Shown piece after piece: positions 1,532-18,653 of a stretch of 29,696 bases of DNA. Positions within the stretch are counted from its first letter, which is position 1. Each line of letters starts with the position of its first letter. This stretch comes from a virus. A program made the position numbers and the translations under genes. The DNA lies in IMG/VR virus record IMGVR_UViG_3300006869_000065, positions 1 through 29,696 of that record. One strand, written 5' to 3'. Under the pieces are notes generated by a model. It saw only the letters and a list, made by a program, of their open reading frames with translations. It had not been told where the DNA came from and ran no database searches.

Positions 1532-2215
1532 TTATTGTCCTTGTTGTTTATCGTTAACGGTGTCGTTTATACTATTTGTTAGCATAGCGAATTCACCTTG
1601 TACCAAACCTTGTGTTATAGCGCTAACCATATCTAAAGGTAATGGGTATGCCATCTGGTCGTCATAACAATAATCGTTTTCACATGTAGCAAATTTCCCT
1701 ACTTCTTCGGGATCTTCGAACACGCCTCTAACGTTTATCTTTTCCATACCGTTAGGTTCGTAGACGTAAATATACTCATCAATGACGTAATAACGTGTAA
1801 GTCTAGATGTATATTTATCGTATGGAATCCATTCCAGTTCGTAGGGTTCCATCTTAGGTATGGTGTCTGCACCGTTTACTTTACCTATGAATGTAAAAGC
1901 ATCAGTGAGATTGAACCTAACAGTCTTAGGCATTCTCCTGTTGGTTCGATATATGGTACATCCTGTAGGTACTGCAGGACCTATGGTTCCTTCGCAGCAT
2001 CTAGCCCAGTTGACTCTTTCTAGGTCTATGCATCCCAGGTCTTGTTCTATGGTTTTAGAGACGTACCCATTCCGTGAGTAGTCTCTACGTATCATCATAG
2101 CCCTGTAATGCTGGATGTTGAACTTTATCTGATCGATAGATATAAGTTCATCGTTACTGCTCCTGCCGCCCCTAAGCAGGTTCAGTATGTTATATGCCAT
2201 TTCGTCAAGAGTCAT
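1532..2215 (-). CDS. Probable connector/ring-type virion structural protein
   Basis: A 227-aa protein beginning MTLDEMAYNILNLLRGGRSS, followed by an Ile/Tyr/Arg-rich helical block (IKFNIQHYRAMMIRRDY) and then a beta-rich body with WARCCEGTIG, YELEWIPYDKY and IYVYEPN. This N-terminal helix-then-barrel architecture is one I associate with neck or ring proteins of Bacteroidota podoviruses, including crAss-like phages, and it is common in marine viral metagenomes. The protein at 15074-16312 has a comparable N-terminus (MTIQEMH..., then EIDHEINMAVRRFINQRY), so the two may play related roles at the head-tail junction. The gene overlaps the end of the upstream gene by 11 bases. Structural assignment is fairly likely; the exact ring position is not determinable here. 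Confidence 0.6.
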   Translation of the reverse strand: MTLDEMAYNILNLLRGGRSSNDELISIDQIKFNIQHYRAMMIRRDYSRNGYVSKTIEQDLGCIDLERVNWARCCEGTIGPAVPTGCTIYRTNRRMPKTVRFNLTDAFTFIGKVNGADTIPKMEPYELEWIPYDKYTSRLTRYYVIDEYIYVYEPNGMEKINVRGVFEDPEEVGKFATCENDYCYDDQMAYPLPLDMVSAITQGLVQGEFAMLTNSINDTVNDKQQGQ

Positions 2216-2495
2216 CGTACTTCTTTTTAACGTGCACTAGCTCAGCACACTTTTCGTATTCTTCGTTGTCTTCAAAGTATTGTATGATGTCGTCTACAAT
2301 CATGCGAAATGTCTCAGGCGCAGAGGGGTCAAAGGGCAGGAAGATCATGTCGTCTGCTTTGTCCAAAAGCTCACGCACAGTCATCCCACCCGTAGCTATC
2401 GAATATGCATTTCGATAAGCCTCGTCAAGTATCTGTATCTCCTCTTCTAATGAGGAAATATTCTCTTCTTCGTCTCTGTCTTCAAACTCTAACAT
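2205..2495 (-). CDS. Small acidic hypothetical protein (96 aa)
   Basis: A small, strongly acidic helical protein starting MLEFEDRDEEENISSLEEE, with a long predicted helix and a C-terminal Asp/Glu-rich segment ending VHVKKKYDDS. I do not recognise a family. The same frame is open back to an ATG at 2642, with further ATGs at 2591 and 2567. Those starts would overlap the phosphoesterase by 86-161 bases, and the phosphoesterase C-terminus (QAYIWNKSTGLEGYL) looks genuine. I therefore choose ATG 2495, which overlaps it by 14 bases. The start remains uncertain: the 2567 start (MKLKEQGKHIYGISP) also reads like plausible protein. No Shine-Dalgarno sequence decides between them. Confidence 0.6.
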   Translation of the reverse strand: MLEFEDRDEEENISSLEEEIQILDEAYRNAYSIATGGMTVRELLDKADDMIFLPFDPSAPETFRMIVDDIIQYFEDNEEYEKCAELVHVKKKYDDS

Positions 2496-3615
2496 TTGCC
2501 TGTAAATAGCCCTCAAGTCCTGTGGACTTATTCCATATATATGCTTGCCCTGTTCTTTTAGCTTCATACCCCATTTGCTTATGCCATTCATCGTTAGGAC
2601 AAATAGAAGGTATGAACCGTACTTTGATACCTCTGTACTCATTTACCATTTCTTTGTGGAGATGCCCGCAGTGCACTTCTCGGTGTTCTGTACGTGCAAA
2701 CATCTCTGGTTTTTCAGTTGCCATTATTAGTGGCATGTCTGCAGGTTTCTCCTTATCACCATGTGTGAACATGATCATGTTCGTGCCATACTCGTAGTAC
2801 TTGCGTGAATCATAGTCATTGTCCACGGTGACATTGGCATCATTTCTATACCATCCTGCTAACACATCTCCTGCATAGAACATGCGTTCGTAGTCATGGT
2901 TACCTGATACAACGATTACATCTACCGGTGCTCTTTGCTTAAGGAAGTCGATCGCAGTAGTCATCAGTTGCCAGTAACCTCTAAAGGTATCCTTCCACCC
3001 AGCAGAGTCCTGCTGTGGTGTCCCTTTGGTTGTAGTACCTCTCATACCCTCAGAGTTCATACCGTCATTACCGATGGGAAGTATGAATCTTTCTATATCA
3101 AGTCCCGCCGCTTTTCTCCAGAGTTCTTCCACCACCTTCATGTACTGCTTCTCAACCTGATCAAGTGTCAGGCTATGAAGCTTTCCGTAGTGGATGTCGG
3201 GCAATGAGATCTCGTACGCTACTGGCTCAAGAGCAGGCTTGTAGTCTACTCTGTTAACCTTGGGGCTGTACTTAGCTGCAAAGCTTTCTATCTCATCTTT
3301 GATTGCTTCGACGCTCATTGAGTCACCCTTTGTGACTACAGAGAATCTCTGCTGTCCTGACACAGTCTGCCAGAACTTTACACTAGAAACGTCGGACGGG
3401 CTGATGCCGTTCTTGTCAAGGAACTGTTCGAACTCACTAATGACACTCTCGTTATCATTCGTGTTTTCTTCATTACGTGCCAGCTTCCTGGCTTCGTACA
3501 ACGCTGTCTCACAATCTTCGATAGGGCAATTAAGTCTCTCAGATAGTACGTCAGCGCTTTTCTTAAGGTATCCTCGCCTCTCGGCGATGAAGTCTTTGAT
3601 TTCGTTTACAGTCAT
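2482..3615 (-). CDS. Calcineurin-like metallophosphoesterase with N-terminal helical (HTH-like) region
   Basis: A 377-aa protein with the ordered metal-binding motifs of the calcineurin-like/Mre11-type metallophosphoesterase superfamily: D140-I-H142 (SLPDIHYGK), G-N-D at 182-184, the signature G-N-H-D at 238-241 (VVSGNHDYERMF), H285 (FTHGD) and G-H-L-H at 317-320. Known members cleave phosphodiesters or phosphomonoesters using two metal ions. Residues 1-50 look like a helix-turn-helix-like segment (FIAERRGYLKKSADVLSERL, then LYEARKLAR) that could bind DNA. The substrate cannot be read from sequence; a DNA nuclease, nucleotide phosphatase or cell-envelope activity are all possible. Its position directly after the holin (ATGA overlap) within late genes is unusual for a replication nuclease. 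Confidence 0.88.
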   Translation of the reverse strand: MTVNEIKDFIAERRGYLKKSADVLSERLNCPIEDCETALYEARKLARNEENTNDNESVISEFEQFLDKNGISPSDVSSVKFWQTVSGQQRFSVVTKGDSMSVEAIKDEIESFAAKYSPKVNRVDYKPALEPVAYEISLPDIHYGKLHSLTLDQVEKQYMKVVEELWRKAAGLDIERFILPIGNDGMNSEGMRGTTTKGTPQQDSAGWKDTFRGYWQLMTTAIDFLKQRAPVDVIVVSGNHDYERMFYAGDVLAGWYRNDANVTVDNDYDSRKYYEYGTNMIMFTHGDKEKPADMPLIMATEKPEMFARTEHREVHCGHLHKEMVNEYRGIKVRFIPSICPNDEWHKQMGYEAKRTGQAYIWNKSTGLEGYLQANVRV

Positions 3616-4887: not shown

Positions 4888-6501
4888 TTAGTTTATAACT
4901 AGGAAGTTGACTCTCATAACTCCTGCAGTTGTACCAGAGTTTTCTTGGTTGTGCAGGAGTATAGTGAATGTACCTGTACCTTGGTTACCTAGAGATACTG
5001 AGTATCTAGCGTTAGCTGTCCCAGTCTTATCGAACAAGGTCAGTAGTATGAGTGAGTTTGCAGTTACTAAGCTGTTGCTTACATCAAAGGATGCGGTCGC
5101 GTCCCCTGCCAAAGTACAGGTGCTGCAAAGTGTTATCTTACCACTTGTAGTATTGAGAGTTACCCCATCTACAAACCCTGCTGTAGCTCCTTGAGTCACT
5201 GATCCCATACCTGTATGTATGATTCCGTGATCAGCGGCTGTGAGGGTTATGTCCCCGTCCGCAACTGTGAGGTCACCTGAAGTGATGTTAACTTGACCAC
5301 CCGCGACTCTGAGACTACCGTTGTTTACAGTAACGTTTTGAGACTCGTCTACGGTAAGTGCATCAGTATCTGCTGTACGAATCTTTACGCTGCCATCTGT
5401 ACCACTACCAGCTTTACGGCCTCCGTTGATTGTCAGTGCGCCCCCACTACCGTTAGTATCACCGTCTCCAGCTTTGATTGTGACGTCTCCGCCTGCGTTA
5501 CCTGTACCAGATGCACTTGCGCCTTGTATTGTAAAGTTGGATGTCGCTCCAGTGATGGTGTTCTTTACCGACAGGGTTTGGCTGTTACTGCCTGTGGTAC
5601 CCAGAGAAATGTTGTTGGCTACGTTGAGGTCAGATGTGAAGTAAGCTGTAGGGGTAGCACTACCTATGAAGACTTTACCTGATGTGTCTATGTTAATGCC
5701 TTCGTTGGTTACGTCGTTGCTTATCCAACCACTGCCCATCCCCAGGTTGTTGTCGTCAAAGTCTACGTTGGCTGTTATACTACCAATGCTGGAAGATATC
5801 TCTATCGCACCTGCAGTATTGTTTATTGACACATTTGTGCCGGCAGTCAATGTAGACCATGCAGGCTTACCTGTAGTCTCATTGTGTATGAGAACCTGAC
5901 CGTTTGCTGTAGGTGTGACTTGCTGTATGTCATTTGTGTCGTTACCAAACAACACCCCACCTTTTACAATAGAGGACAACCCTGTACCACCGTTTGCTTC
6001 TGGAAGAATACCAGCTACATCTGTAGTAAGGGTAACTGTAGTCAGGTACTCATTGGTAGTGTTCCTAAAGTTGCTGAGGTCGTAGTTAGAGGGGTCCCAC
6101 GCCAAGAGGATGTTACCCTTCGTAGTGTCGTTGGCGTCTGTTTCTTCAACAATCTGTATGGGGCAGTTTGCATTGTTGTGCTCTCCGGCACTTGGCATTG
6201 ATATGCTCCCGTCAAAGTCTACTCTAAATCCTTTGAAGATGAGTGTATTGTTGTCTATACCTGTAGTGGTATCTGCGCTACCTCCTCCCACGAACAGCTT
6301 TGAAGAGTTTCCTATATTAACCAAGGACGTGCTGTTTGCACCGTTGTTATGTGCAAGCGTTCCGTTGTTCAGTTTAGGGAACACGTCTGTAATAGGCAGC
6401 TGGAATGATCTACCCGTACTTCCATTGGACAGGAGCAGTACGTCGTCAGCCGTAGTTTCCCTTTTAGATTTTACCGGTAGTGATGTAAGTCTTTTAGCCA
6501 T
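4888..6501 (-). CDS. Tail fibre / receptor-binding protein
   Basis: A 537-aa fibrous protein. Residues 1-40 (LTSLPVKSKRETTADDVLLL) are typical of a fibre N-terminal attachment segment. The body contains fibre-style modules: NGGTGLSSIVKGGVLFGND, PTANGQVLIHN, and a Gly/Ala/Ser-rich block (ASASGTGNAGGDVTIKAGDG, NGSGGALTINGGRKAGSGTD) built from beta-helix-like repeats. The C-terminal ~85 residues (LCSTCTLAGDATASFDVSN ... VMRVNFLVIN) resemble a globular trimeric tip that probably contacts the receptor. The gene sits one base downstream of the giant tail protein, the usual fibre position. Receptor specificity cannot be inferred. No endosialidase or chaperone cleavage motif was noticed. Confidence 0.85.
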   Translation of the reverse strand: MAKRLTSLPVKSKRETTADDVLLLSNGSTGRSFQLPITDVFPKLNNGTLAHNNGANSTSLVNIGNSSKLFVGGGSADTTTGIDNNTLIFKGFRVDFDGSISMPSAGEHNNANCPIQIVEETDANDTTKGNILLAWDPSNYDLSNFRNTTNEYLTTVTLTTDVAGILPEANGGTGLSSIVKGGVLFGNDTNDIQQVTPTANGQVLIHNETTGKPAWSTLTAGTNVSINNTAGAIEISSSIGSITANVDFDDNNLGMGSGWISNDVTNEGINIDTSGKVFIGSATPTAYFTSDLNVANNISLGTTGSNSQTLSVKNTITGATSNFTIQGASASGTGNAGGDVTIKAGDGDTNGSGGALTINGGRKAGSGTDGSVKIRTADTDALTVDESQNVTVNNGSLRVAGGQVNITSGDLTVADGDITLTAADHGIIHTGMGSVTQGATAGFVDGVTLNTTSGKITLCSTCTLAGDATASFDVSNSLVTANSLILLTLFDKTGTANARYSVSLGNQGTGTFTILLHNQENSGTTAGVMRVNFLVIN

Positions 6502-6502
6502 T

Positions 6503-9500
6503 TTAGAATATTATTTCGTTCCCGTCTTCGTCTTGGAATCCTATGGATGAATTACCACCAAAGTCCTGGGTTCTGTTGTTAGGACCAATGCCCTGTCCTT
6601 CGTTACTTTCATAGATGCCTGAGTTTGCAAGTGGATCTATCTCACAGTTGTCGCAGTATCTCTTGATGAAATCCACGAATGTCTGGAAGTAGTTCTCTGG
6701 GTTGCCCCCGCTTTGGAACTTGACGTTGATGCACGCTTCCCACACTCTTTGCTTTTTGTCTGCTGTTACTCCTGGGAGTGTCATTCCAGGAGACCAATCT
6801 GACTTTGCAGTGTAGTAGCTTGACGTACTCACTCCGTTCACGACCCTCGTGTACTTGACTGTAGTTCCTTTTCTGTAGTTGCTACTTGCAGCGAATCTTT
6901 GATATCTGCCTGCAGCCCACCTTGCTTTACAGTCGATCTCTTTCATTCTATTGCTGAAGCCTCTAACCTTACCGTTTCTCTTGACCCCGGCTTCATAGTT
7001 ATCGCAGTCAAACAAACAATCAAGGTTGTTCTTTGAGCCTTCGATGAACAAGTATGCAATAAGAGCAAGCTTGGTTGTATCTACGTCATCCAGGTGTATG
7101 CCTGCTTTGAGTCGGAACATGTACTTAAGTGCATCTCCGCTGGCGCAGGACATCAGTACCTGAGTCAACCAGTCTTTGTCGTACTCTTCATTTAGAGCTG
7201 CTTCCTCGAATATCGGGTTGCATACAATTGTAGTAGTTGTGAACGTTTCGATGGGCTCACACTCATTGTTTGCTACACTCTGCTCGCATGGTTGTTGTCC
7301 AGGGTTGCACAACTCTGGATTTAGCAAACACTCTGGATTACAATCGTTGCCTACACAAGGACAGTCACCGGTCTCTAGGCAGTTCACGATAGGTGGATTT
7401 ACACAGTCCGGGTTGTTCGGGTCTGGGCAGGGATCTTCGACGCAGCCCTCTCCTGTTGGGTCATCTTCACAATCTGTACATCCTGCACCATTACAAGCGT
7501 AAGTGCACTGGCCGTTGTCTGCATTTTCCCCTCTACACTCAGGGTCGTAGTTAGTCGCACTTTGATCCGCGCAGCACTTACCTCCTCCCTCGCAATCTCT
7601 GAGGCTTGCACTGAATCCTCTACTTCCTGCTGTTAGTGTTTCATCTGCACGTTTGTCGCATAGAAGACACTCTGGGTGTGTTGGGTACAAGTCGCAGAAG
7701 TCACATGTAGTGCAGTACACACAAGTGCCATCGTCAATTGTTGCGTCTGGGTCGTAGTTCTCGGCCCCAGGGTCAGTGCAACCTGCTACGTTGTCTGGAC
7801 AGTCATCCGGGTTTGTAAACTGGTTACAAGGTTGAGGACAGTCATCTGTGTTCGTTATCATGTCAATGACATGATAAGTTTGCTCATCTGCGAACTGACC
7901 AAACTCTGCAATACAGTCTTCAAGTCCCCCGAAGTTTTCACCAACAGCTGTTGCGTCGATGTGGGGTACTACAAACAGAAGGTATTGACCCCCAGTTAAG
8001 TCGTTGGTTGGTCCAAAGAGCGCACCTAACGGAACATTTATTTCATATTCAGAACCCGCTAAACTTTCCCCTATACCAAATGGGTCACCGTTTGTTATAG
8101 GTGTGGTAGTCATATCCCCAACTCCTATGAAGGCTGCAGCAGTATTACTCATAGTCAGGAATTCTCCTTCTCCTAGGCCTTGTATAGCGGTTACGTTGTT
8201 GTCGTAGAAGACCATGGCCTCACCAACAACGTTGATGTTTCCTCCGCTTACGTAGGCTACGAACAGTACAAAGTTTCCTTCGTTAGCTCCAAGTGCTCCT
8301 GTTGGGCTTGATACCGAGTAGTCTTGGACTGTGACAGTCATACTGCCATCGTAGTTCGGGTCGTAGTAATAGTACGGCTCTCCTCCATCACTGGGCTCTG
8401 CTACGTAAACGCAATCTGAGCTTGCTCTGGTTGACTCTACGTCCGTTATGAATATAGAGTTAAGTGCATCATTGAATATTTCTTCGCATGGTATGTACTC
8501 GCAGGAACCATCATCGGAGTTTGCATCCGGGTTGAAGTTCACCGCTGTCTCGTCCATACATCCCTCTACCAAGTCTACGCAGTCTTCTGAAGTTGACACG
8601 TATGAGATAAGTTCTGCGGGGCAGATTACTGATGTTGGGTTACCGTCATCGTCTACTATGTAATCTACTACATCCAGCAGACTTACAAACTGGCCGCTGT
8701 TATCTATAAGTCCAGTTGCTTGAAGTGTAACTCCTATCACAGCCTCACCCACAGATCCGTTGTTATCCTGATCGAAGTCAAAAGGACCTGCATTTATAAC
8801 AGCATTTGCTCCCTGGAATGTGCTGATCACTGACTGTGTTATAGCTATCTCTGGATTAGGTACGTAGAGACCGTTTTCTACTATGTGAGAAACTACTGTC
8901 TGTTCAAGAATACCATCTACAGTTATCTCAACTATGTAATAGAATGCAAATCCTGTCTGCGGTTCAATGAGTTGATATGCATCTCCTAGAGTTCCACCTT
9001 GTCCTGGGTCTGACTGTACAAAGAATCCATCGATAAGAATGCTGAAATTAGCTTCTCCGTACACATTTCCATTCTCGTCTGGTCCGACGCAGTCTGTAGC
9101 TATTTCTGTAAGACACCAAGAGTAGAAGTTGCCGCAAGTTACACTTTCGTCCTCTCCTTGGAACTCACATATTCTTGAGTTGAGCAATCCTGTAGATATA
9201 CCATCCTCAGATGTTACACAGAAGTTAGGTGTAAATACACCGGAGCCATCTGCGAGGAATGTATTAAATTGGTCTGTTGGGGTGTTTACTCCAGGGTAGA
9301 AACTTACTCCATCCCATGGAGTTCCTTGCCACGGAGCATTGTCTGCTCCTGCATAGTTTCCTGCGGAAGTTGATGTTGGATCAGTACATTCACAGTATTC
9401 CACGAAGAAGTGGTAGGCCATGTAGTAGAACTGCTTCTGACCGCAAGTCTGTAGTGGTTGGAATCTAAGTACAGCTACATATTCTCTTCCTGCTTCTAGC

Positions 9501-12500
9501 CCTATGTCTGTTACTGTACTTGCATCATCGGGATCAAAGTTTCTAAAGTAGAATGAACTAGCATCACCAGTGTACTGGTTTGCTAGTGTTGCTACCTCAT
9601 CGAAACTTTCCAACCCAACTCCAGAGAAGTTCCCAAATATATCATAGTACACATTTGTTTGTGCAAATGTTGATCCGTCTCCATTGCTTTCTACCGCCCA
9701 ACCATTACCGAACGTGTTAGCGGGCACAGTTCTGTTCTGCCAGTCGTCGTACGTATATATCTGACATACCCACCTAGAAGCAAGCTCAGAAGTAATCATA
9801 TCGTTTAGTGCAACCTGATACCCACCACTATAGCTATCGTTGCCTAATTGCTGTTGAGAGCCTTGGTCAGATGCAGGTACAAGACGGTCAAGCAAAGCAT
9901 CATGCCTCATAGCGAAGTATGTAAAGGCTGTATTAGGTCCTCCTCCTGATCCGCTTGTTAACGCGTTCTCTGAAGTGTTTACTGCATTAAACAAGTTACC
10001 ATCCTGCCAGTCATAAATATCTGGGCTTGACGTTGGTACGTCAGCCAGTCCCCCTCCAACATTTCCTATATATGTAGCGGGGGCTGTTCCGTATAGTCCG
10101 TTTGCGCTAACACTGTCTACGTTTCCAGGAGTTGTATTTATAAGAAGTGGAAGTGCTTGCACAAAGTGTAAGGCATTTGCATCCGAGTCTAAGGCAGTTT
10201 CGCAGAAGTAACAACTGCCGTCATCCACGTTGGCGTTAGGATTGAAGTTCACTGCGTTTTCATCAGTGCACCCTTTAATAGAATTATCTGGATCTCCGTC
10301 GCCGTCGTTATCTTCAAATCCTGTGTCAATAGTGTGATCTCCTATTACAACAAACTTCCTATTTCTGTATGGGGGTTTGTCTTTGGATACGTCGCTGCAC
10401 TCTGTAGTAATACCTAACGACAGTATAGAACATTCTACCTCTGTGTTTTCCCAGCTCTGTGTCCATCCCAAGTCTACATGAGCTCTTTTAGGATCGGTTC
10501 CTGCTATTGCTAGGCTTCCTGCTGAGAACAACAGCATATGTCTGTGAGGTTCATCATCACTTGAGGCAGCACTGTTATATCCGGCTCCACCTATCGTGGC
10601 AAATACTCTTGCTTCATCTGCTGAGTCATGAACAAAGAACTGCAGGTCTTGATCTATGTATGGATCTCTGCCGGGAAAATACTTGTATGTAAAAGTATTA
10701 GTATCAGCTAAGACATCCGTTGGATCAGCCAAACTGAGGCCCAAGAACTCTGTTTGGAAGATGTCACCGTACCCATTAAATCCTAGGCCAAACTCAGAGA
10801 GAAGGACTGTCTGAGTGGAGTTGGTTGTTGTTCTGTACTCTACAGAGGTTGCAGCGGCGAGCGTTCCGTCAGCGAGGTAGTTTAAGGCGTAGCCGTTATC
10901 TACATTGGCGTTTCCTGTTACTGAGAAGTATGAGTTTACGTACAGCAGTGATGGAAAGGCATCTGCACCACCTGTCCCCGTTTCTGAGTACTGATCAGTT
11001 ACAACGTTTCTAGGATATATGACTACTGTTTCAAACCTTTTGCTGTCAGGGCTAGTGCCCTTTCCGACTTCGCCTACAGGTAGTGACTCTACAACATTTC
11101 TACATCCGCACCGGTCATAGTCTAGTTCCTCGTTACATAGAGACAAGTTTCTGAATCTAACTAAGCTTGTTTCGTTTTCGTCCCCTAAAACAGCCCACGT
11201 TGCTTCAGAATTTTTATCTGTGCAGAAAGTTGAGTTTACACCATTAATGCCGTTGGCAGCTATAGCGTATGTGGGAGGTAGTGTTGAACTGCCCCCTCCG
11301 GAAGTAACGTTAACTCGGTACTTAACTCGGTGTAGGGTGTCTCCAGCTCCCTGCTCTGTTATTGGAGAAAACCCATAAACGTCAGTAAAAGTTGGTATGT
11401 CTGAAGTAGCCCAAGGCGCATAATCGTCATTACTAATCGCTATAGCTTGAGGAGACTCTGCGTATACAAATGCTGTATAAGTGAAGAGCACAGAACTTGA
11501 CAAGTTCTGACTGTTAACAGCGGCTGATGCTACTGTGGGCCACCCAGAAGTTAACCCTGTAGATGCTGGCGTAAAGCCGGCTTCTCCTCCTCCTATGTTA
11601 GCTCCTATGGTTCTTGAGGCGTTGTAAAAGGTTTGGTGTATTCTGGTTGCATGGTACACACCAGAGAACAATTTATCATATGCTGGAACCAGTTCTTGGT
11701 TCTCCGAGGTAGAAATATAGTTTTGGAAACTGTGCGCTGACGTGTTGTCTGGGTCAGCCCCCATGTAAAATGCATTTGATATAAAGTCCTGCCACCCTAT
11801 ATTTCCGATAAGTACTGCGTTTAAAGCCTCAAGACGCATATACTGACTGCCTCCTAGAGCTGTCTGGTTAGAGGCATCAGGATTGCCTGACGCTTCATTG
11901 TATGATGATTGAAAAGCCCAACTAGCATACCAAGCCCAAATGTTTACGTCATTTGAGTTGATTGCACTACCTACACCATTTGTAATGTTGTAGTTAGTAG
12001 TTGAGTTTATGGTGAAGTTAGTGTTCTCCCACTTATAGAAAGTAACATAGTGCATAAACTCAGACTGAGCATGCGGGTAGTAAGGACTTCTGTAGATACC
12101 TCTGTCTGGGTGTACTCTCAGATTCTCACACCTAGCGTTGGATCTGGTTGCTGAGTCATCATACCCGTAGGTATCTCCTAGTTCATATCCTTGGTTTGGT
12201 ATGCCTAGACCTGTAGGTAGGAAATCACCACCCACGGTCTGTGGTAGGTAAGACCCACCTATAGAAGACGCACCGTATTTTGTATCTCCGTAACTAGGTC
12301 CTACTACGTACTTCCAGGCATAGAGTCCATAATTTATATATCCATGGGTTTCCCCTATGTTTAGTTGTGGTCCGTGGAATTCAAGCAAGCTGAATTGATC
12401 GCCCTTACGCTGGCTTCTGTAAGTACTAGTACGTCTGTCTATTCTCTGCTGAGATTGAGGATCAACCATGTCCATCCTGTCCCTTGTCAGGTCCAGTTTT

Positions 12501-13372
12501 CTAAAATCTGGTTTTGAGTTCCTGCCGTATACGGCGTTTCTAAGAAAGTGTATTTGTCCGGGGGCAGTTATTGCTTCAGGGGGAAGATCAAACGCTGACC
12601 GCTGGTGCTTAGGCTGAGCTGGGGCTAGTCTACTAGCTGAACCGGGAGTACCGTTGAGCCACTTTGTTTTTGTCCTTACCGAGTTCCACTGTATACCATC
12701 GTTAGCAGTTCCTAGATCTTGAACCTTCACTGTTGCCCCTATGTTACTGCTGTCAGCCCCAGTTAAGAATCTGGCTACGTCAACTGTGGGGTTTTGGTGT
12801 GCTTTATCGCCAGTTGATGCTGGCACTCCAGCAAGAACGAATGGTACTTGCCTCTTATTTACAGCTACCCCTAAGTCACTTCTGCCCCCTTGTAGCAGCA
12901 AACACCCTTCTAGTATAACTATATCACCGGGCTGGACTTGATCAAAAAGCTTTTCAAGCAGATATACTTTTACTGCCAGGTGCCCATCTGTAAGATATCT
13001 GAACTCTGTCCGCTCGATGTACTCTGCTAGTGTGTTTCCTGTTATAGTAACTAGAGTTAGGTCATCTGACTTTATTTTAATAGACGTGGGCTGCACACCT
13101 ACCAGCTCTCTTATAGGCTTATTAAGCAGACCGTTCTCAAAGTTTCCCTGAAGGCCGTCACCTCCGTTAGCGCCCCCGTACAGCAAAAGATCTGCAGAAG
13201 TCCACCCCTCGTAAGCTAACTCTTCGCTTGAGAGATACCGTATTTCTGAGGGAGAATGCGCGGAATTGTGTATGAATATATCAAATGCGCTAGCGGCATG
13301 AGCCTCTACGAACGTAAATACGGGTAGATCTCTGCCCCCCTCTCTTGTAGAAAATCCAAGTACTCTAGCCAT
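6503..13372 (-). CDS. Giant tail/adhesion protein (2289 aa) with TSP3-like Cys/Asp repeats
   Basis: This single gene fills 23% of the window. The N-terminal ~190 residues (MARVLGFSTREGGRDLPVFT ... GDIVILEGCLLLQGGRSDLG) look like a folded virion attachment domain. Residues ~190-1030 are Tyr/Asn/Gly/Ser-rich and beta-like. Four copies of a GCxDxxAxNxxPxAxxDDGSC motif follow at 1034-1057, 1604-1629, 1864-1887 and, degenerate, 1933-1960. A very Cys/Pro/Asp-rich stretch spans ~1960-2060, and a helical C-terminus (LTQVLMSCASGDALKYMFRL) ends the protein. The repeats resemble thrombospondin type-3-like calcium-binding motifs abundant in secreted flavobacterial proteins. Arg is written mostly AGA at the N-terminus, unlike the capsid gene. 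Located between head/neck genes and the fibre, it is probably a baseplate, tail-spike or adhesin protein; no enzymatic motif is visible. Confidence 0.8.
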   Translation of the reverse strand: MARVLGFSTREGGRDLPVFTFVEAHAASAFDIFIHNSAHSPSEIRYLSSEELAYEGWTSADLLLYGGANGGDGLQGNFENGLLNKPIRELVGVQPTSIKIKSDDLTLVTITGNTLAEYIERTEFRYLTDGHLAVKVYLLEKLFDQVQPGDIVILEGCLLLQGGRSDLGVAVNKRQVPFVLAGVPASTGDKAHQNPTVDVARFLTGADSSNIGATVKVQDLGTANDGIQWNSVRTKTKWLNGTPGSASRLAPAQPKHQRSAFDLPPEAITAPGQIHFLRNAVYGRNSKPDFRKLDLTRDRMDMVDPQSQQRIDRRTSTYRSQRKGDQFSLLEFHGPQLNIGETHGYINYGLYAWKYVVGPSYGDTKYGASSIGGSYLPQTVGGDFLPTGLGIPNQGYELGDTYGYDDSATRSNARCENLRVHPDRGIYRSPYYPHAQSEFMHYVTFYKWENTNFTINSTTNYNITNGVGSAINSNDVNIWAWYASWAFQSSYNEASGNPDASNQTALGGSQYMRLEALNAVLIGNIGWQDFISNAFYMGADPDNTSAHSFQNYISTSENQELVPAYDKLFSGVYHATRIHQTFYNASRTIGANIGGGEAGFTPASTGLTSGWPTVASAAVNSQNLSSSVLFTYTAFVYAESPQAIAISNDDYAPWATSDIPTFTDVYGFSPITEQGAGDTLHRVKYRVNVTSGGGSSTLPPTYAIAANGINGVNSTFCTDKNSEATWAVLGDENETSLVRFRNLSLCNEELDYDRCGCRNVVESLPVGEVGKGTSPDSKRFETVVIYPRNVVTDQYSETGTGGADAFPSLLYVNSYFSVTGNANVDNGYALNYLADGTLAAATSVEYRTTTNSTQTVLLSEFGLGFNGYGDIFQTEFLGLSLADPTDVLADTNTFTYKYFPGRDPYIDQDLQFFVHDSADEARVFATIGGAGYNSAASSDDEPHRHMLLFSAGSLAIAGTDPKRAHVDLGWTQSWENTEVECSILSLGITTECSDVSKDKPPYRNRKFVVIGDHTIDTGFEDNDGDGDPDNSIKGCTDENAVNFNPNANVDDGSCYFCETALDSDANALHFVQALPLLINTTPGNVDSVSANGLYGTAPATYIGNVGGGLADVPTSSPDIYDWQDGNLFNAVNTSENALTSGSGGGPNTAFTYFAMRHDALLDRLVPASDQGSQQQLGNDSYSGGYQVALNDMITSELASRWVCQIYTYDDWQNRTVPANTFGNGWAVESNGDGSTFAQTNVYYDIFGNFSGVGLESFDEVATLANQYTGDASSFYFRNFDPDDASTVTDIGLEAGREYVAVLRFQPLQTCGQKQFYYMAYHFFVEYCECTDPTSTSAGNYAGADNAPWQGTPWDGVSFYPGVNTPTDQFNTFLADGSGVFTPNFCVTSEDGISTGLLNSRICEFQGEDESVTCGNFYSWCLTEIATDCVGPDENGNVYGEANFSILIDGFFVQSDPGQGGTLGDAYQLIEPQTGFAFYYIVEITVDGILEQTVVSHIVENGLYVPNPEIAITQSVISTFQGANAVINAGPFDFDQDNNGSVGEAVIGVTLQATGLIDNSGQFVSLLDVVDYIVDDDGNPTSVICPAELISYVSTSEDCVDLVEGCMDETAVNFNPDANSDDGSCEYIPCEEIFNDALNSIFITDVESTRASSDCVYVAEPSDGGEPYYYYDPNYDGSMTVTVQDYSVSSPTGALGANEGNFVLFVAYVSGGNINVVGEAMVFYDNNVTAIQGLGEGEFLTMSNTAAAFIGVGDMTTTPITNGDPFGIGESLAGSEYEINVPLGALFGPTNDLTGGQYLLFVVPHIDATAVGENFGGLEDCIAEFGQFADEQTYHVIDMITNTDDCPQPCNQFTNPDDCPDNVAGCTDPGAENYDPDATIDDGTCVYCTTCDFCDLYPTHPECLLCDKRADETLTAGSRGFSASLRDCEGGGKCCADQSATNYDPECRGENADNGQCTYACNGAGCTDCEDDPTGEGCVEDPCPDPNNPDCVNPPIVNCLETGDCPCVGNDCNPECLLNPELCNPGQQPCEQSVANNECEPIETFTTTTIVCNPIFEEAALNEEYDKDWLTQVLMSCASGDALKYMFRLKAGIHLDDVDTTKLALIAYLFIEGSKNNLDCLFDCDNYEAGVKRNGKVRGFSNRMKEIDCKARWAAGRYQRFAASSNYRKGTTVKYTRVVNGVSTSSYYTAKSDWSPGMTLPGVTADKKQRVWEACINVKFQSGGNPENYFQTFVDFIKRYCDNCEIDPLANSGIYESNEGQGIGPNNRTQDFGGNSSIGFQDEDGNEIIF
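7493..7576 (-). repeat. Degenerate TSP3-like repeat 4 of the giant tail protein
   Basis: Encodes residues 1933-1960, starting CCADQSATNYDPECRGENAD and ending NGQCTYAC. The repeat keeps the NYDP core and the flanking Cys residues but has an insertion and lacks the DDGSC acidic pair. It leads directly into the Cys-rich segment. Confidence 0.65.
7712..7783 (-). repeat. TSP3-like repeat 3 of the giant tail protein
   Basis: Encodes residues 1864-1887, GCTDPGAENYDPDATIDDGT then CVYC. The GCTDPxAxNYxPxATxDDGxC form is the commonest version I know from flavobacterial extracellular proteins. Confidence 0.85.
8486..8563 (-). repeat. TSP3-like repeat 2 of the giant tail protein
   Basis: Encodes residues 1604-1629, GCMDETAVNFNPDANSDDGS then CEYIPC. 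It is the copy closest to repeat 1 in protein sequence, but several codons differ, so it is an old duplication or a separate acquisition, not a recent DNA repeat. Confidence 0.85.
10202..10273 (-). repeat. TSP3-like repeat 1 of the giant tail protein
   Basis: Encodes residues 1034-1057, GCTDENAVNFNPNANVDDGS followed by CYFC. It has the full pattern G-C-x-D-x-x-A-x-N-x-x-P-x-A-x-x-D-D-G-S-C. The acidic residues could ligate calcium and the two Cys could form a disulphide. Confidence 0.85.
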
Positions 13373-13887: not shown

Positions 13888-15042
13888 TTAGCTCCAAACG
13901 AAACGCTTCGCAGTACGAACAGTAACTTGGAACAAAGTGTCAATTACTGAGTTAGAGCCGTCAGCAAGGAGTGCCGTGCCAGACGAACCTACGTAGATAC
14001 GAACACTGTTTGTCTGACCTGCAGGAGCAATTCCTGCACCAACTGGCCAGTTAGGAGTGTTGTAGTTGATGTCGATGACATCGTATGCAAAACCAGACTG
14101 AGTAAACGTAGTCTGATCAGTTGGGAAGTACATACGGTTGAAGTTTCCGTACTTACCTCTAGTACCCTTCTCATCAGAGATAGCCTGCCAGTCGTTACCA
14201 GCACCAATAACCAAGTTAGCCTTGGTGTTAGTCAAAGTGCTGTCTACTGCACCAGTGTCGCTGAGGGTGATCATAATGTCAAGATCAACACCAGCATGGC
14301 GAGCAGTGTAGGTGTCACCAGACGTAGTAGTCGTAGTAACATTAATCAACTTGCTCAAAATGCCGTGAGCATCAACTTTTTCCTCAAGCTTAGCACAGAA
14401 GCCAGCAAGGTTATCAGTAGCCAACTCAGAGTTCAGCACCTCAATGTTGAAGACCTTGTGGTTTGTGGTATTGAAAGCTGCGAGTGGGAACTCTTTGCTT
14501 TCACCACTCAAGTCAGTCATCGTCAGGTCCTCGTTGTTTACGAAGTACTCGTAAGCAGTAGGGGTAGTTCTGATGACAAACTTGACCAGTCTGTCTTTAC
14601 TAGTAGCCATTGTGTTGTCAGTGATGGTGTGCTTAGCACCTACAGAAGCAGTGTGGGGCGTGTATTGAATGCTCTTGATGTTAGCCGTAGGGATAACAGG
14701 AGTAGCAATTGGGTTTCCGCTAGGCATACCCTGAGCAAACTGCAAGTGGCTGTAGTGCCATGCTGGATTGACCGAAGTCAGAGCACTCACCTCAGTCACT
14801 ACGAGTTCGTCAGCCACTTGGATACCGTCAGCAGGGTCATCTGCATCTGTACCAACAATGTTCACGTTAGTAGTAGAGTACAACTGATTTGCAGTAATCC
14901 AAGCTTGTCCGTATGAATCCCAAATACCACACTCGTGGTTGGCAGCGGTAGTGCTACCTACAATAGATCCGAAATTGGTGGTCGCGCCCGGGATGAGCTG
15001 ACCATCGTTGCAGATAAAAGTCTGCGAAAGATTAGAAGCCAT
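13888..15042 (-). CDS. Probable abundant virion protein (tail tube or second head protein)
   Basis: A 384-aa protein of unknown family with a beta-rich, Thr/Asn/Ala-rich composition. It starts MASNLSQTFICNDGQLIPGA and ends VTVRTAKRFVWS; other blocks are AYEYFVNNEDLTMTDLSG and GIWDSYGQAWITAN. Three features mark it as highly expressed: preference for C-ending and CGT/CGC Arg codons (both Arg in the C-terminal RTAKRF are CGT), an AT-rich leader (ATAAAACTTTATTACC before ATG), and a strong hairpin just after the stop. By position, after two neck-type proteins and before tail genes, a major tail tube protein is most likely; a capsid decoration protein is an alternative. The long antisense frame across it is a by-product of codon bias. 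Confidence 0.65.
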   Translation of the reverse strand: MASNLSQTFICNDGQLIPGATTNFGSIVGSTTAANHECGIWDSYGQAWITANQLYSTTNVNIVGTDADDPADGIQVADELVVTEVSALTSVNPAWHYSHLQFAQGMPSGNPIATPVIPTANIKSIQYTPHTASVGAKHTITDNTMATSKDRLVKFVIRTTPTAYEYFVNNEDLTMTDLSGESKEFPLAAFNTTNHKVFNIEVLNSELATDNLAGFCAKLEEKVDAHGILSKLINVTTTTTSGDTYTARHAGVDLDIMITLSDTGAVDSTLTNTKANLVIGAGNDWQAISDEKGTRGKYGNFNRMYFPTDQTTFTQSGFAYDVIDINYNTPNWPVGAGIAPAGQTNSVRIYVGSSGTALLADGSNSVIDTLFQVTVRTAKRFVWS

Positions 15043-15073: not shown

Positions 15074-16312
15074 TTACTCGCTCTCCAGGACCTCCCCAGA
15101 TTGCGTTTGATATCTTGGAGACTCGAATGACTCCAGGATGCTTTTAACTGTCATCTCCACAATCTCGTGATGAGTGTGCTCTGCCAGCTCGCAGCCTATG
15201 CCCTCAGCTAAGTTGACATTTACAGGTCTGCGTAAATACTTTATAGTTACGTTGAGAGGTATCGTATGTACGTCAGAGTACAAATCTACGAAATTTTCTT
15301 GCATCGTGTACATGATGTTGTCCGTTTTTGCAGTGTTAAACGGATCGTCAAGCAATGCAAATATGTCATCGTGTTGGACTGCCTTACAAAGTTGCCTGCT
15401 TATCTTAGTGTGGTTTTGACTTAGGTCAGCTTTTCTATTTACTTTGTATGACACTTCAGGGGATTCAAAGATTTTTCTCTCTATTCCACCGTCCTTTAGT
15501 GGTGCATATGCAGGTGCGTACTTTATCAACCCATATATACCATCATATATCCCATCTGTAGAGTTCTGAACTTGGTGTGGCTTTGCCAACCCACTCCCGT
15601 CAGAAAGTTTTCTTACTGGGTAGCTTAGGTATATTTCGTTACCATCTGCGTGGGGAGAGTCTGAAGTTATAGAGCTGGAGAACATGTCAGCCAAACCATC
15701 TTGGTAAGATCTTCCAGGCACATAGCCTTCAGCCCACATCAGTGGATTTAACAGTTCCTCTAAGCTAGTTCTGCTTCCAATCGTGCTCCATATAACTTCT
15801 AACTCCCCAAAAACGTTAGCTACTGATACTTCTCGTATTACATTGCCTGGTTTTCCAGAGTCTATGGGTATTCTTAGAAACCTATCTGTTGTAGCTATCT
15901 CTTCAAACCGTACAGGCTTATTACAGTTTACTGCAAGTGTGCTCTTTATGTTGATGAGGTACATGTAATCTACAGGAAGCTTGAATCTCTCCAAGTTTAT
16001 AATCTTATTTCCTGTAGCTGAGTAAACTGCCCCGAAATAACTACCCGAGCCTATTGCTTCTGATCCACCTTTTATGTTCAAAGGTGTAGAATAGTCTTCA
16101 AGTAGCGTTCTGAGGTCGTCTATCCTCTTCTGAGATTGCTCAAACCCTTTTCCTTTGGGATTGGACATGGGATTGTAGCGCTGATTGATGAATCTGCGTA
16201 CGGCCATGTTGATTTCATGGTCAATCTCTTCAGGTAAGAGATTGTCAACCTGGAAAGATGCGACTTTTTGCACCCCCAGGTTGACAGCTATATGCATCTC
16301 TTGTATTGTCAC
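15074..16312 (-). CDS. Probable neck/connector structural protein (412 aa, GTG start)
   Basis: A 412-aa protein starting MTIQEMHIAVNLGVQKVASF, then LPEEIDHEINMAVRRFINQR. This opening, with a helix, an EID motif and an RF(I)xQRY motif, is one I associate with structural (ring/neck) proteins of Bacteroidota phages. The body is beta-rich with LPVDYMYLINIKSTLAVNCN and a late IPLNVTIKYLRRPVNVNLAE, then a helical end (VKSILESFESP). The start codon is GTG at 16312, overlapping the stop of the upstream gene as GTGA, the same coupling as ATGA elsewhere. Located between the major capsid protein and the probable tube protein, it most likely joins portal and tail. The N-terminal layout recalls the protein at 1532-2215. 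Confidence 0.65.
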   Translation of the reverse strand: MTIQEMHIAVNLGVQKVASFQVDNLLPEEIDHEINMAVRRFINQRYNPMSNPKGKGFEQSQKRIDDLRTLLEDYSTPLNIKGGSEAIGSGSYFGAVYSATGNKIINLERFKLPVDYMYLINIKSTLAVNCNKPVRFEEIATTDRFLRIPIDSGKPGNVIREVSVANVFGELEVIWSTIGSRTSLEELLNPLMWAEGYVPGRSYQDGLADMFSSSITSDSPHADGNEIYLSYPVRKLSDGSGLAKPHQVQNSTDGIYDGIYGLIKYAPAYAPLKDGGIERKIFESPEVSYKVNRKADLSQNHTKISRQLCKAVQHDDIFALLDDPFNTAKTDNIMYTMQENFVDLYSDVHTIPLNVTIKYLRRPVNVNLAEGIGCELAEHTHHEIVEMTVKSILESFESPRYQTQSGEVLESE

Positions 16313-17115
16313 GCTATTGTCTTCAGTTGAGCTCTCATAGCGTTAACCGCTCCTGAGTTCTTCTTGTTTTTAAAGTAAACTATGGCGTCGGTTTGGTTCT
16401 CTCCAATGGTCTCGTCCCCGTATATGTACTGGTTTCCGATTTTACGCAAGACATCCTTGCTAACCATCTCTTCAATCTCTGCCTTAAGGTCGAGATCTTT
16501 GTCAGTTGCAAACTTCAAGAACTTGGCTGGGTTGTTTCCTTTGAGTTCGTACAGTTTGTTTTCAATTTCCAAGTCAGTTAGCTTCTCTGGATTAGATCCG
16601 TCGCTAAGTAGTCTTACAAGTCTTCTCATTTTGTCAACATCTGTTGAGCACTTGATGAACTCTTTGTCTGCTTCCTTGCTAACTTTTACTTTTGCGTTCT
16701 TCTTAAGAAGATCTCGTTCAGGATCGTAGATATAGAACTTTTTTACTGGGTCTTTCTCCATATGTTCTTGACTATCTGCTACCTGTCTATGCTTCTTGCA
16801 CCACTGAAAGGTGATGTAGTCCATTACGTTGTGCGGGTGACCTGTCTCATCTACTGTAATGTCCAACTCCTTACCTTCAAATGGTACCTTCAGTGCCATA
16901 CTGGCCCAAAAGTCTTTTTCAAGCCTTGGCCAGGCTTCGTGTGTTGGGGGCACGTCGAGTATTCCTGTCAACAACCTGTGTGCTTCATCTCCTTCTACTC
17001 CTCTAAGAGGTTGTCTTCCAACGTAGATGGAGCCAATCGTAATTTTTGCCCCAGCTCTGATCTCTTTTGGGAGATGGTTGAGGACTTCTTTGCGTCTGAT
17101 TATAACTTTTTTCAT
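16309..17115 (-). CDS. Hypothetical head-neck region protein (268 aa)
   Basis: A 268-aa mixed protein starting MKKVIIRRKEVLNHLPKEIR, with a Lys/Asp-rich helical C-terminal half (KFATDKDLDLKAEIEEMVSK, DVLRKIGNQYIYGDETIGEN, QTDAIVYFKN). I do not recognise a domain. The C-terminal 'IGNQYIYGDETIGxNxxDAIxYF' block looks conserved in character and may be a folded module. The gene follows the capsid protein after an 89-base gap containing a long hairpin, and its stop overlaps the GTG start of the connector-like gene. A head completion or head-tail joining role is a positional guess. Codon use is ordinary for the window. Confidence 0.6.
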   Translation of the reverse strand: MKKVIIRRKEVLNHLPKEIRAGAKITIGSIYVGRQPLRGVEGDEAHRLLTGILDVPPTHEAWPRLEKDFWASMALKVPFEGKELDITVDETGHPHNVMDYITFQWCKKHRQVADSQEHMEKDPVKKFYIYDPERDLLKKNAKVKVSKEADKEFIKCSTDVDKMRRLVRLLSDGSNPEKLTDLEIENKLYELKGNNPAKFLKFATDKDLDLKAEIEEMVSKDVLRKIGNQYIYGDETIGENQTDAIVYFKNKKNSGAVNAMRAQLKTIA

Positions 17116-17204: not shown

Positions 17205-18653
17205 TTACGATGCAGTGCAAGTCAAGTCGAGCGAAGTATCGAATCTGCGGAGCAGGATACCAGCTGTCTTCAACATGTGCACAGAAGCACCGTCTATATC
17301 TGAAGCTCGCGTGTCGGTTTCAGTGAAGCCCTTAGGCACAACTGAACCTGCAACACACCAGCGGAGCATTTCGCGTCCCTTCTTGTTCAACATCTGGAGG
17401 TTGTTCTCCCCGTCATAAGATGACTGGTCAACAAACACCATTCTGTATGACTCAAGCGGCAATCCAGACTCAGGGTGCTTCTGAGAAGCCTGAGCAACAG
17501 GGCCGTGATCGAACAATGGGACCTTAACCACGTTCACCGTGTGACCATCGACGTGGTCGTACGAGGTGAAGTAACCAGTGATACCCAAGCTACGACCGCT
17601 ACCAGTGATAAACTTAGACTCAGTAGTTCTGAGGTAAGAGTTTGTAGTAGTACCGACACCGCTAGAGCTAACACCGTTAGCGTAGTAGCTGCGGAGAGCC
17701 TTGTCGAACTCACGTGCACCACCAATACCGGTGTACAAAGTCACCTGCTTATCAGTAGCGTCGGTCATTCCGTAGAACAAGTCACCAATCGTGTCCTCCA
17801 ACTTCTTCTGCGTGAGAGTAGAGTAGGTGTCCTTATTGATGATCTGCTCGAACAAACCAGGACCAGATATAACTGGTTGGCCATTCTCGTCCAACATTCT
17901 GTTAGATCCTTTGTCATCATAAGTCTTGTTTCCGTACCAGTAGTACATCTCACACTCTTCCTTAAACTTGAGCATGTGACGGTACTCCTCGTAGTCCATC
18001 CACAACTTCGTAGAAGAACCTTCCTTAGTTGGGAGGTTGAACTCTGCTACGTAGTCTTTAGCGTTACCAGAGAAGTGGTAAGACTTACGCACAGTACCAA
18101 TCTTAGAACGGACCAACCCGGGAGCTGTCCAGTTAGAAGCGTTACCGCGTGAGAAGTCAATACCAACGTTAGCAAACAACATGCCCCAAAGAGCACCTGC
18201 TGCACGGTCCTCTGAAGGAATAGCTGTAACGTCTGGAGAAACGATTTGGAGTTCATACTCGTAACCGTTACCAACTGATCTAGGTTCGCTCATAATCCGA
18301 GCCAACACACCAGTCTGTGAGACCAAAGTGTATGGGAAAATGAACCACTTGTCAGGGAAGGTCAATCTGAAGGGTGCACCTCCAGTTCCGTCTCCTGTGT
18401 TAGCGACAACTGGGCGAACGTTAACTTCATGGGTCTTGACACGATACTCAAATTCAAATCTATTGATTGACTTCGTGTTACCAACCCCTTCAGTCAAGAA
18501 GGAAAGAGGAAACTTCTTTTCTTCACGTCCGGCCAAGTGCGTAATGATGGGAGAGAGCTCTTCGGGCTTCTCCATCAAAGCATTAACCAACGAGTTTGTG
18601 TCGGTCATCTGCTGGTCATTGTAGTACGTTTTAAGTACCTGCATCAAAGCCAT
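17205..18653 (-). CDS. Probable major capsid protein
   Basis: A 482-aa protein starting MALMQVLKTYYNDQQMTDTN and ending DTSLDLTCTAS. It has no short diagnostic motif I can name; the call rests on context and character. It follows directly after an acidic scaffold-like gene, lies downstream of portal and terminase, has the expected size (~480 aa, similar to HK97-fold capsid proteins of Bacteroidota podoviruses), and its codon use is more C-ending than that of its neighbours, as expected for the most abundant virion protein. The leader is AT-rich (TTTTAAAATAAACAATC before ATG) with no Shine-Dalgarno sequence. A 15-bp hairpin follows the stop. An N-terminal helix (residues 1-60) could be an assembly arm. 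Confidence 0.8.
   Translation of the reverse strand: MALMQVLKTYYNDQQMTDTNSLVNALMEKPEELSPIITHLAGREEKKFPLSFLTEGVGNTKSINRFEFEYRVKTHEVNVRPVVANTGDGTGGAPFRLTFPDKWFIFPYTLVSQTGVLARIMSEPRSVGNGYEYELQIVSPDVTAIPSEDRAAGALWGMLFANVGIDFSRGNASNWTAPGLVRSKIGTVRKSYHFSGNAKDYVAEFNLPTKEGSSTKLWMDYEEYRHMLKFKEECEMYYWYGNKTYDDKGSNRMLDENGQPVISGPGLFEQIINKDTYSTLTQKKLEDTIGDLFYGMTDATDKQVTLYTGIGGAREFDKALRSYYANGVSSSGVGTTTNSYLRTTESKFITGSGRSLGITGYFTSYDHVDGHTVNVVKVPLFDHGPVAQASQKHPESGLPLESYRMVFVDQSSYDGENNLQMLNKKGREMLRWCVAGSVVPKGFTETDTRASDIDGASVHMLKTAGILLRRFDTSLDLTCTAS

Follow-up and report, generated by a model that had tools for sequence, protein, structure and literature searches.

A giant protein with cysteine-bounded motifs as a probable C-terminally anchored tail adhesin of a crass-like phage

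The DNA record analyzed here is 29.7 kb long and comes from a virus (IMG/VR record IMGVR_UViG_3300006869_000065, positions 1 to 29,696; hereafter the window). It contains an open frame for a protein of 2289 amino acids (aa), P0001, which carries several copies of a 21-residue motif with a cysteine near or at either end. An earlier note, made from the sequence alone, had placed this frame at 6503–13372; the frame was confirmed and its strand corrected, as the gene is read from 13372 down to 6503, i.e., on the minus strand. We consider it probable that P0001 serves a crass-like phage as tail adhesin, anchored at its C-terminus and with a variable N-terminus at the distal end, and that the motifs act as disulfide hinges. 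According to this proposal, the conserved C-terminal ~245 residues, which match a small stand-alone protein of related phages, probably fix the chain to the tail, and the ~2000 residues in front of them would consist mostly of beta modules, with a hypervariable N-terminal region, presumably distal, that would contact the host surface. The 21-residue motifs may represent short cross-linked joints between neighboring modules, with the two end cysteines probably closing a disulfide loop that would serve as an elbow or hinge. Hinge action is proposed by analogy with a related region of animal perforin-2, which is thought to act in this way between two domains.

As judged from capsid, portal, and tail rings (Table 1), the virus is a crass-like phage. 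A Crassvirus major capsid protein (MCP) and several tail ring proteins were found, and ring 1 is encoded in a longer record, G001, where it scored 185 bits vs. a cut-off of 27. Reported hosts of Crassvirales are Bacteroidetes (PMC10136315). Capsid identity to named phages was 28–30% among the 30 matches listed and below 60% in all 141 records; that collection therefore holds no close named relative. IMG/VR relatives were collected by capsid similarity (at least 596 of 597 stretches confirmed), and the 80 loci kept, picked on capsid similarity alone, form the sample for the survey of the gene slot described below; some contigs are present under more than one locus id. Protein copies 100% identical to P0001 were found at full length in L003–L005 and over residues 1–783 in L006. 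P0001 itself matched no Pfam family at E ≤ 1, nothing in PHROG at E ≤ 0.1, and no named phage by tblastn; in NCBIfam nothing came near a cut-off, with one match far below threshold.

The adhesin role of P0001 is likely from the position of its gene, which bears out the earlier claim of a tail adhesin. The order MCP, gp33, ring 3/4, p384, p152, slot, tail-fiber-like gene, metallophosphoesterase, and ring 2 is common to relatives with either slot version and matches that of Cellulophaga phage phi14:2. P0001 occupies the place of phi14:2 gp097, which, according to its record (KC821624), is a tail protein that mass spectrometry revealed in virions. By family hidden Markov models (HMMs), collinearity with phi14:2 and crAss001 was clear for the gp33-like protein, ring 3/4, ring 2, and the metallophosphoesterase, and weak for p384 and p152 (3.8–7.7 bits). 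P0001 and gp097 showed no sequence match, and the Mtd_N domain at the N-terminus of gp097, a mark of N-terminally anchored tail fibers, was not found in P0001 by Pfam. The same neighborhood bears on the very remote alternative that P0001 corresponds to the crassvirus muzzle protein, the gate at the tail tip, expanded by inserted segments. The muzzle protein is described as large and insertion-variable in crassviruses (PMC10172136), which would suit a giant; however, its gene gp44 follows ring 1 in crAss001, and in the present virus ring 1 has a different location, next to a 2211-aa frame of G001 (L140) for which homology gave no identification. Moreover, the HMM of the giants' C-terminal domain did not match gp44 (E 1.4), and phmmer with the rest of the giant gave no gp44 match either. 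A muzzle identity was hence rejected on the location of ring 1 and the missing gp44 match. As a separate observation, the tail-fiber-like gene after the slot encodes 467–573 aa beside giants (window 4888–6501; L038, L051, L127, L174, L172, L152, and L156) and is shorter beside small versions (325–392 aa; L018, L026, L041, L060, L068, L070, L076, and L079). The two lengths vary as if jointly; the copy in L061 ends at a contig edge, and L220 had no match.

In relatives, the slot is filled either by a version of 1000–2550 aa or by a stand-alone protein of 123–157 aa, with unchanged flanking gene order. For the survey, we used the 45 of 80 loci in which p152 was found on the plus strand and dropped the 35 without such a p152. 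A giant was present in 16 loci, the stand-alone protein of 123–157 aa in 21, and an intermediate form in one (L078, 371 aa), while seven loci were cut off too early. The 16 giant loci include four of the same phage as P0001 and two from one near-identical pair, and three giants (L010, L034, and L036) are present only with their first 521–786 residues, stopping before any motif. None of the small slot proteins in these 45 loci contained the motif. An HMM built from the giants' C-terminal 245 residues matched all 22 of the small or intermediate proteins in the slot with 25–68 bits (~17 distinct sequences). In layout, the giant therefore resembles a small tail protein to which a very long N-terminal extension has been joined, and the modules of this extension adjoin one another at the motif; either the giant has grown or the small form is a remnant. 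The small proteins matched in two blocks, and the giants would therefore also have an insertion inside the C-terminal domain. In an earlier test, the C-terminal 440 aa of P0001 were matched in 12 of 30 related records at E ≤ 1e-3. Against 34 reference proteins, the best scores of the C-terminal HMM were obtained for phi14:2 gp084 (5.5 bits) and gp098 (2.7 bits), neither of them significant. One crassvirus gene thus occurs in two states, with ~140 aa alone or with up to ~2000+ extra residues between unchanged flanks, and such pairs offer natural material on adhesin attachment and host-range determinants in crassviruses.

Conservation falls from the C- to the N-terminus. In 20 distant homologues, identity to P0001 was 12–17% over the first 1033 residues vs. 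21–32% over the last 245. The corresponding values were 57% vs. 89% for the closest homologue, L121, 43% vs. 60% for L122, and 32% vs. 42% for L123. Such a gradient would be expected if the protein were anchored by its C-terminus and exposed at its N-terminal end, and it suggests this arrangement. In an alignment of ten homologues, each of the four visible motif positions held an intact or degenerate copy; 17 of 63 columns were invariant in the three strict motifs vs. 36 of 2226 elsewhere, and 23 of 64 cysteines were invariant. A recent capture of the motif by this phage alone, which would correspond to the earlier idea of a host module recruited here, was rejected, as copies stand at the same alignment positions in the ten homologues. 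The homologue in record G003 (L122:647–7479) is split over two frames of 917 and 1393 aa, which could reflect a sequencing error, decay, or a frameshift.

Regarding the motif copies themselves, strict matches to GC.D..A.N..P.A..DDG.C start at residues 1034, 1604, and 1864 of P0001. With an expectation of ~2e-10 (independent-letter model at this composition), chance was rejected as the origin of the copies. Four repeats had been described before; these three stand, and the fourth (residue 1933, CCADQSATNYDPECRGENADNGQC) lacks the DDG, is longer, and fails the pattern. A fifth copy is visible by alignment only, where C1329 and C1385 lie opposite the intact GCLDPSATNYSPLPGNTGLGNC of the relative L128. 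The intervals between visible copies are 570, 260, and 69 aa. Other observations of the earlier note held up: the three motif pairs differ synonymously in 12, 7, and 8 of 22 codons, and the copies are therefore not recent duplicates; likewise, the repeats lead into a cysteine-rich segment, with 9, 14, and 9 cysteines per 100 aa over residues 1801–2100. The proposed beta-rich spacers received modest support, since strands appeared between the motifs in a structure model of residues 1290–2289 (mean predicted local distance difference test score, pLDDT, of 58); the model of residues 1–1100 was unusable. The structure models, a check that the note had named, favor neither calcium nor a disulfide.

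For the cysteines, motif copies were picked on nine core positions without requiring either cysteine. At a core score of ≥ 8/9, both cysteines were present in 49 of 49 distinct copies from crass-like phages, 275 of 281 from other viral sequences, and 790 of 793 from cellular ones; at ≥ 7/9, the counts were 56 of 60, 329 of 360, and 972 of 997, respectively. No copy lacking both was found in any of the three sets. Because the two cysteines are nearly always kept together, a disulfide is the simplest reading of the pair, and a disulfide hinge is favored. A search of the PDB with the motif profile (A3) returned perforin-2/MPEG1 (6u23 and 6u2j) at E 1e-5, three other MPEG1 entries at E 0.3–0.4, and nothing else up to E 10. 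The family profile (A2) matched MPEG1 at E 0.003, with no other part of it matching MPEG1, and phmmer with a single tandem motif pair returned no MPEG1 and one chance match. From the residue numbers, we place the motif-like segment in the EGF-like hinge module of perforin-2. In the structural reports, this truncated module between MACPF and P2 is described as a hinge point and focal point of rotation (PMC6989145) and as unresolved in the pore state (PMC9713709). By title, no published account of the motif or the protein was found, and full-text matches to 'GCTDP' and 'DDGSC' came from unrelated fields. For P0001, which has no Pfam match, perforin-2 thus supplies a structural lead on an uncatalogued small module.

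The note had proposed a calcium-stabilized adhesin, in which the motif would be a Ca2+-binding loop with Asp/Asn chelation and any disulfide would be secondary. We regard this as possible but clearly not the preferred interpretation. Motif position 11, which lay outside the selection, is Asn or Asp in 93% of crass-like, 94% of other viral, and 91% of cellular copies, in line with chelation; acidic residues or Asn likewise occupy positions 4, 9, 17, and 18, which had served as selection criteria. Conversely, P0001 matched no known calcium-binding repeat family in Pfam (E ≤ 1) or near a cut-off in NCBIfam, and three papers on the structure of perforin-2 (PMC6989145, PMC9713709, and PMC6753088) do not use the word 'calcium' in their main text.

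The motif also occurs well beyond this phage. Genome samples were scored at E ≤ 1e-6, each including its center, a genome chosen for having the motif, and copy numbers per genome are lower bounds. The motif was present in 48 of 99 genomes from the order of G273 (a Flavobacteriales bacterium), often in dozens of copies, and in 9 of 118 from the phylum of G033 (Phaeodactylibacter, Bacteroidota). For the archaeal phylum to which G037 (Poseidonia sp.) belongs, the count was 22 of 116 sampled genomes, and for that of G036 (Anaerolineales) it was 2 of 101. Within the order of G273, it occurred in 42 of 50 genomes of 0.8–2.1 Mb, 6 of 39 larger ones, and none of 10 at ≤ 0.6 Mb (hand count, rounded sizes). 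One Euryarchaeota archaeon genome (L305, G040) has at least 151 copies at E ≤ 1e-3 in ~1.7 Mb, a heavy use outside Bacteroidota. Among named phages, 23 records matched a tandem motif pair at E ≤ 1, and 21 of these are Synechococcus phages; S-H9-2 and marine virus AG-345-P14 have clear copies, and S-CAM3 has shorter variants. The best 80 viral-contig loci with the motif included 20 with several crassviral structural genes and six more with one or two. A tail of the type recognized by the type IX secretion system (T9SS) was encoded in the motif open reading frame (ORF) of 20 of 67 viral loci outside the close crass-like group (seven of the 67 being crass-like) and in 17 of 95 cellular motif ORFs, many of which are cut by locus ends; both counts come from the home-made HMM described below. 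In addition, three Flavobacteriales-type motif proteins in viral-labeled contigs have a T9SS tail by Pfam. From these tails, part of the set of 67 viral loci may be bacterial DNA. The profile searches that the note had called for thus agree with its view of a motif widespread in Flavobacteriales and partly in exported proteins. They do not agree with the motif as a mark of Flavobacteriia, given the archaeal and cyanophage copies, nor with its being uncommon in phage proteins, given the 23 named records and at least 80 viral-contig loci, some of them possibly host DNA.

This distribution also bears on the suggestion of a mimic or decoy, in which motifs of host type on the phage would imitate the surface proteins of Flavobacteriales. 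Such mimicry would fit the frequency of the motif in one bacterial order and the separate motif-rich proteins with T9SS tails encoded by some crass-like relatives. The copies of the giant, however, are single and widely spaced, unlike the close arrays typical of cellular loci: spacings exceeded 120 aa in 35 of 45 cases in the crass-like group vs. ≤ 32 aa in 697 of 1012 in cellular loci, with some contigs counted twice. P0001 also lacks a T9SS tail (no match to TIGR04183 or PF18962), cyanophages and archaea carry the motif too, and no selective reason for mimicry was found. Hence, mimicry of host surface proteins is unsupported, and we rate it as highly improbable.

The separate proteins were found in the crass-like contigs L220, L174, L172, and L159, where a same-strand gene for a motif-rich protein lies 3–5 kb downstream of the giant (truncated in L172, where the contig stops). 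Scores for the T9SS type A sorting domain exceeded the NCBIfam cut-off of 23 in L220 (29.1 bits) and L315 (a longer read of L174; 23.9 bits), as well as in L320, L345, and L361, and stayed below it in L159, L338, L350, and L382. By eye, 11 N-termini of these proteins begin with a hydrophobic segment; a crude signal-peptide pattern matched 10 of 83. In viral contigs, 266 of 337 stretches of this family were confirmed and 80 were kept; of 83 loci, 34 contained a crassviral marker of some kind in the stretch of DNA available, and 15 contained a strict marker there. A home-made HMM, built from three sequences and enlarged over three search rounds, found a T9SS-type tail in 24 of 78 complete ORFs, and its single match in the close crass-like group of the spacing survey was the second ORF of L159. 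Outside the giant, no motif was found in the window or in the scanned parts of record G001 (L131, L139, and L140). Phage-encoded T9SS cargo has been reported earlier in Cryophage (PMC7468147), and the separate protein is a probable phage-encoded, exported surface protein. In partial support of the earlier suggestion of host extracellular modules in the phage, some crass-like relatives do encode a host-type exported motif protein.

These relatives, with an apparently secreted motif-rich protein near structural genes, lend some color to P0001 being a non-virion protein that is made late and put on the infected cell or released, e.g., for superinfection exclusion. We consider this very unlikely: by eye, the N-terminus of P0001 has no hydrophobic signal segment (MARVLGFSTREGG), a T9SS tail is missing, and the slot is that of a virion protein in phi14:2. 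A broader and rather speculative idea gives one Cys-bounded hinge module two outlets in crass-like phages of Bacteroidota, i.e., virion joints in a C-terminally anchored giant and T9SS-exported tandem arrays on the infected cell, as a mechanical hinge shared across phages, bacteria, archaea, and animals. If true, the phage could use the exported arrays to cover the surface of its host or to make it inaccessible.

Several points weigh against P0001 as a C-terminally anchored, hinged adhesin. Its presence in the virion is inferred from the gene slot, and most known tail fibers are attached via their N-terminus. The small slot protein of L079 matched no named phage, and five small slot proteins gave nothing in PHROG at E ≤ 0.1. 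An identity of the C-terminal domain with the tail hub protein THB of crAss001 was rejected (hhalign probability 0.1%, hmmsearch E 2.2). The E-values of the collinearity and C-terminal HMM searches refer to small databases with tens of entries. Anchoring of the alignment on the motifs may have inflated the contrast of 17 of 63 invariant columns, and at 12–17% identity the N-terminal alignment is perhaps not homology at all. The model of residues 1290–2289 is weak (predicted template modeling score 0.34), although strands between motifs reach a pLDDT of 70–87 in places and helices appear in the C-terminal domain; that of residues 1–1100 was discarded (pLDDT 34). Foldseek with residues 1290–2289 against the PDB returned 716 matches at E ≤ 10, many of the top rows being immunoglobulin (Ig)-like, and none at E ≤ 1e-3. 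From a viral library, a structural match to A0A516M141 (E 1.8e-7) was left unused because of a root-mean-square deviation of 22.5 and a TM score of 0.09. For G8DGS1, a local match that spans just 28 columns (deviation of 1.0, 50% identity) may be the motif.

Table 1. Features of the window and of related contigs (L numbers denote loci in relatives).
Feature	Position	Strand	Basis or remark
Tail ring protein 2	1532..2215	minus	PF25702 E 5.3e-35, 121 bits vs. cut-off 27
Metallophosphoesterase-like protein, counterpart of phi14:2 gp086	2482..3615	minus	Family HMM collinearity
Next gene downstream of P0001, 537 aa, tail-fiber-like	4888..6501	minus	phrog_31660 E 6e-4
Giant adhesin-type gene P0001, 2289 aa	6503..13372	minus	Open frame; syntenic homologues in other crass-like contigs
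C-terminal domain, residues 2045–2289, proposed virion anchor	6506..7240	minus	Homologous to stand-alone 123–157-aa slot protein of relatives
Cys/Pro/Asp-rich stretch, residues 1885–2044	7241..7720	minus	Much shorter in ~1000-aa homologues
Motif 4, residues 1933–1956, divergent, longer, CCADQSATNYDPECRGENADNGQC	7505..7576	minus	Pattern and alignment
Motif 3, residues 1864–1884, GCTDPGAENYDPDATIDDGTC	7721..7783	minus	Pattern and alignment
Motif 2, residues 1604–1624, GCMDETAVNFNPDANSDDGSC	8501..8563	minus	Pattern and alignment
Cryptic motif, residues 1328–1385, interrupted by insertion	9218..9391	minus	Aligned to intact motif in L128–L130
Motif 1, residues 1034–1054, GCTDENAVNFNPNANVDDGSC	10211..10273	minus	Pattern and alignment
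N-terminal region, residues 1–1033, hypervariable	10274..13372	minus	Alignment; shorter in ~1000-aa homologues
152-aa gene p152, directly upstream of P0001	13382..13840	minus	Weak likeness to phi14:2 gp098 and to the tail hub protein THA of crAss001 in its C-terminal part
384-aa gene p384	13888..15042	minus	Weak likeness to phi14:2 gp099 / crAss001 gp36 (5.8 and 3.8 bits)
Tail ring protein 3/4	15074..16312	minus	CrAss_Ring_3_4 21.7 bits, under cut-off 27; family HMM to phi14:2 gp100 46.5 bits, also crAss001 gp34/gp35
Counterpart of crAss001 gp33 / phi14:2 gp101	16309..17115	minus	Family HMM
Major capsid protein (Crassvirales)	17205..18653	minus	PF23898 E 1.7e-77, 261 bits vs. cut-off 27
Portal protein	21911..24124	minus	phrog_6547 E 2.5e-122
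Separate motif-rich protein	L220:13876-16197; L315:575-3109; L159:12647-14887; L172:15738-17783		Apparent signal peptide; several with T9SS type A sorting domain

Three further observations concern the DNA around these genes. A near-perfect palindrome, ATCATGTCA-T-TGACATGAT, lies at 7855–7877 within the coding sequence of the giant gene. Two short tandem repeats with 18- and 24-bp units are located at 19561–19677, in a 387-aa gene between the capsid gene and a 666-aa gene. In G001, a 3545-aa frame (L139:5356–15990) matches crAss001 gp50, annotated as a putative RNA polymerase (75 bits).

Compared to known systems, P0001 resembles phi14:2 gp097 in its slot after the block of ring 3/4, gp099, and gp098, and gp097 is a virion-detected tail protein according to its record; it differs in that gp097 has an N-terminal Mtd_N domain, shows no motif in its translation, and gave no sequence match. 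In phiCrAss001, the described tail hub proteins THA and THB are likewise encoded by a pair of small genes located between gp36 and ring 2 (PMC10172136). p152 weakly resembles the C-terminal part of THA (hhalign probability 11%), whereas THB has no profile homology to the giant C-terminal domain (hhalign probability 0.1%). The hinge module of perforin-2/MPEG1 (PDB 6u23, 6u2j, and 6sb3) has the motif itself (profile E 1e-5); outside the motif, the family profile had no match in this animal immune pore-former. The T9SS-exported repeat proteins of Flavobacteriales have the same motif with the same conserved positions, but mostly in close arrays and some with a T9SS tail, and the giant has neither. 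The BACON tandem-repeat tail proteins of crAssphage are also tail-associated in Crassvirales, consist of repeats of a module that occurs in Bacteroidota as well, and have a suggested role in host binding (PMC6949934). The recurring element of P0001, however, is a 21-aa Cys-bounded joint and not an Ig-like domain, and P0001 shares its C-terminal domain with a stand-alone small protein in a small/giant alternation. BACON Ig-like domains measure ~90 aa, and none was detected in P0001 (no Pfam family at E ≤ 1). The BACON repeats are the nearest precedent, since there, too, a tail protein of Crassvirales makes use of a module of host type; the present case differs in the kind of element, the shared C-terminal domain, and the alternation between small and giant versions.

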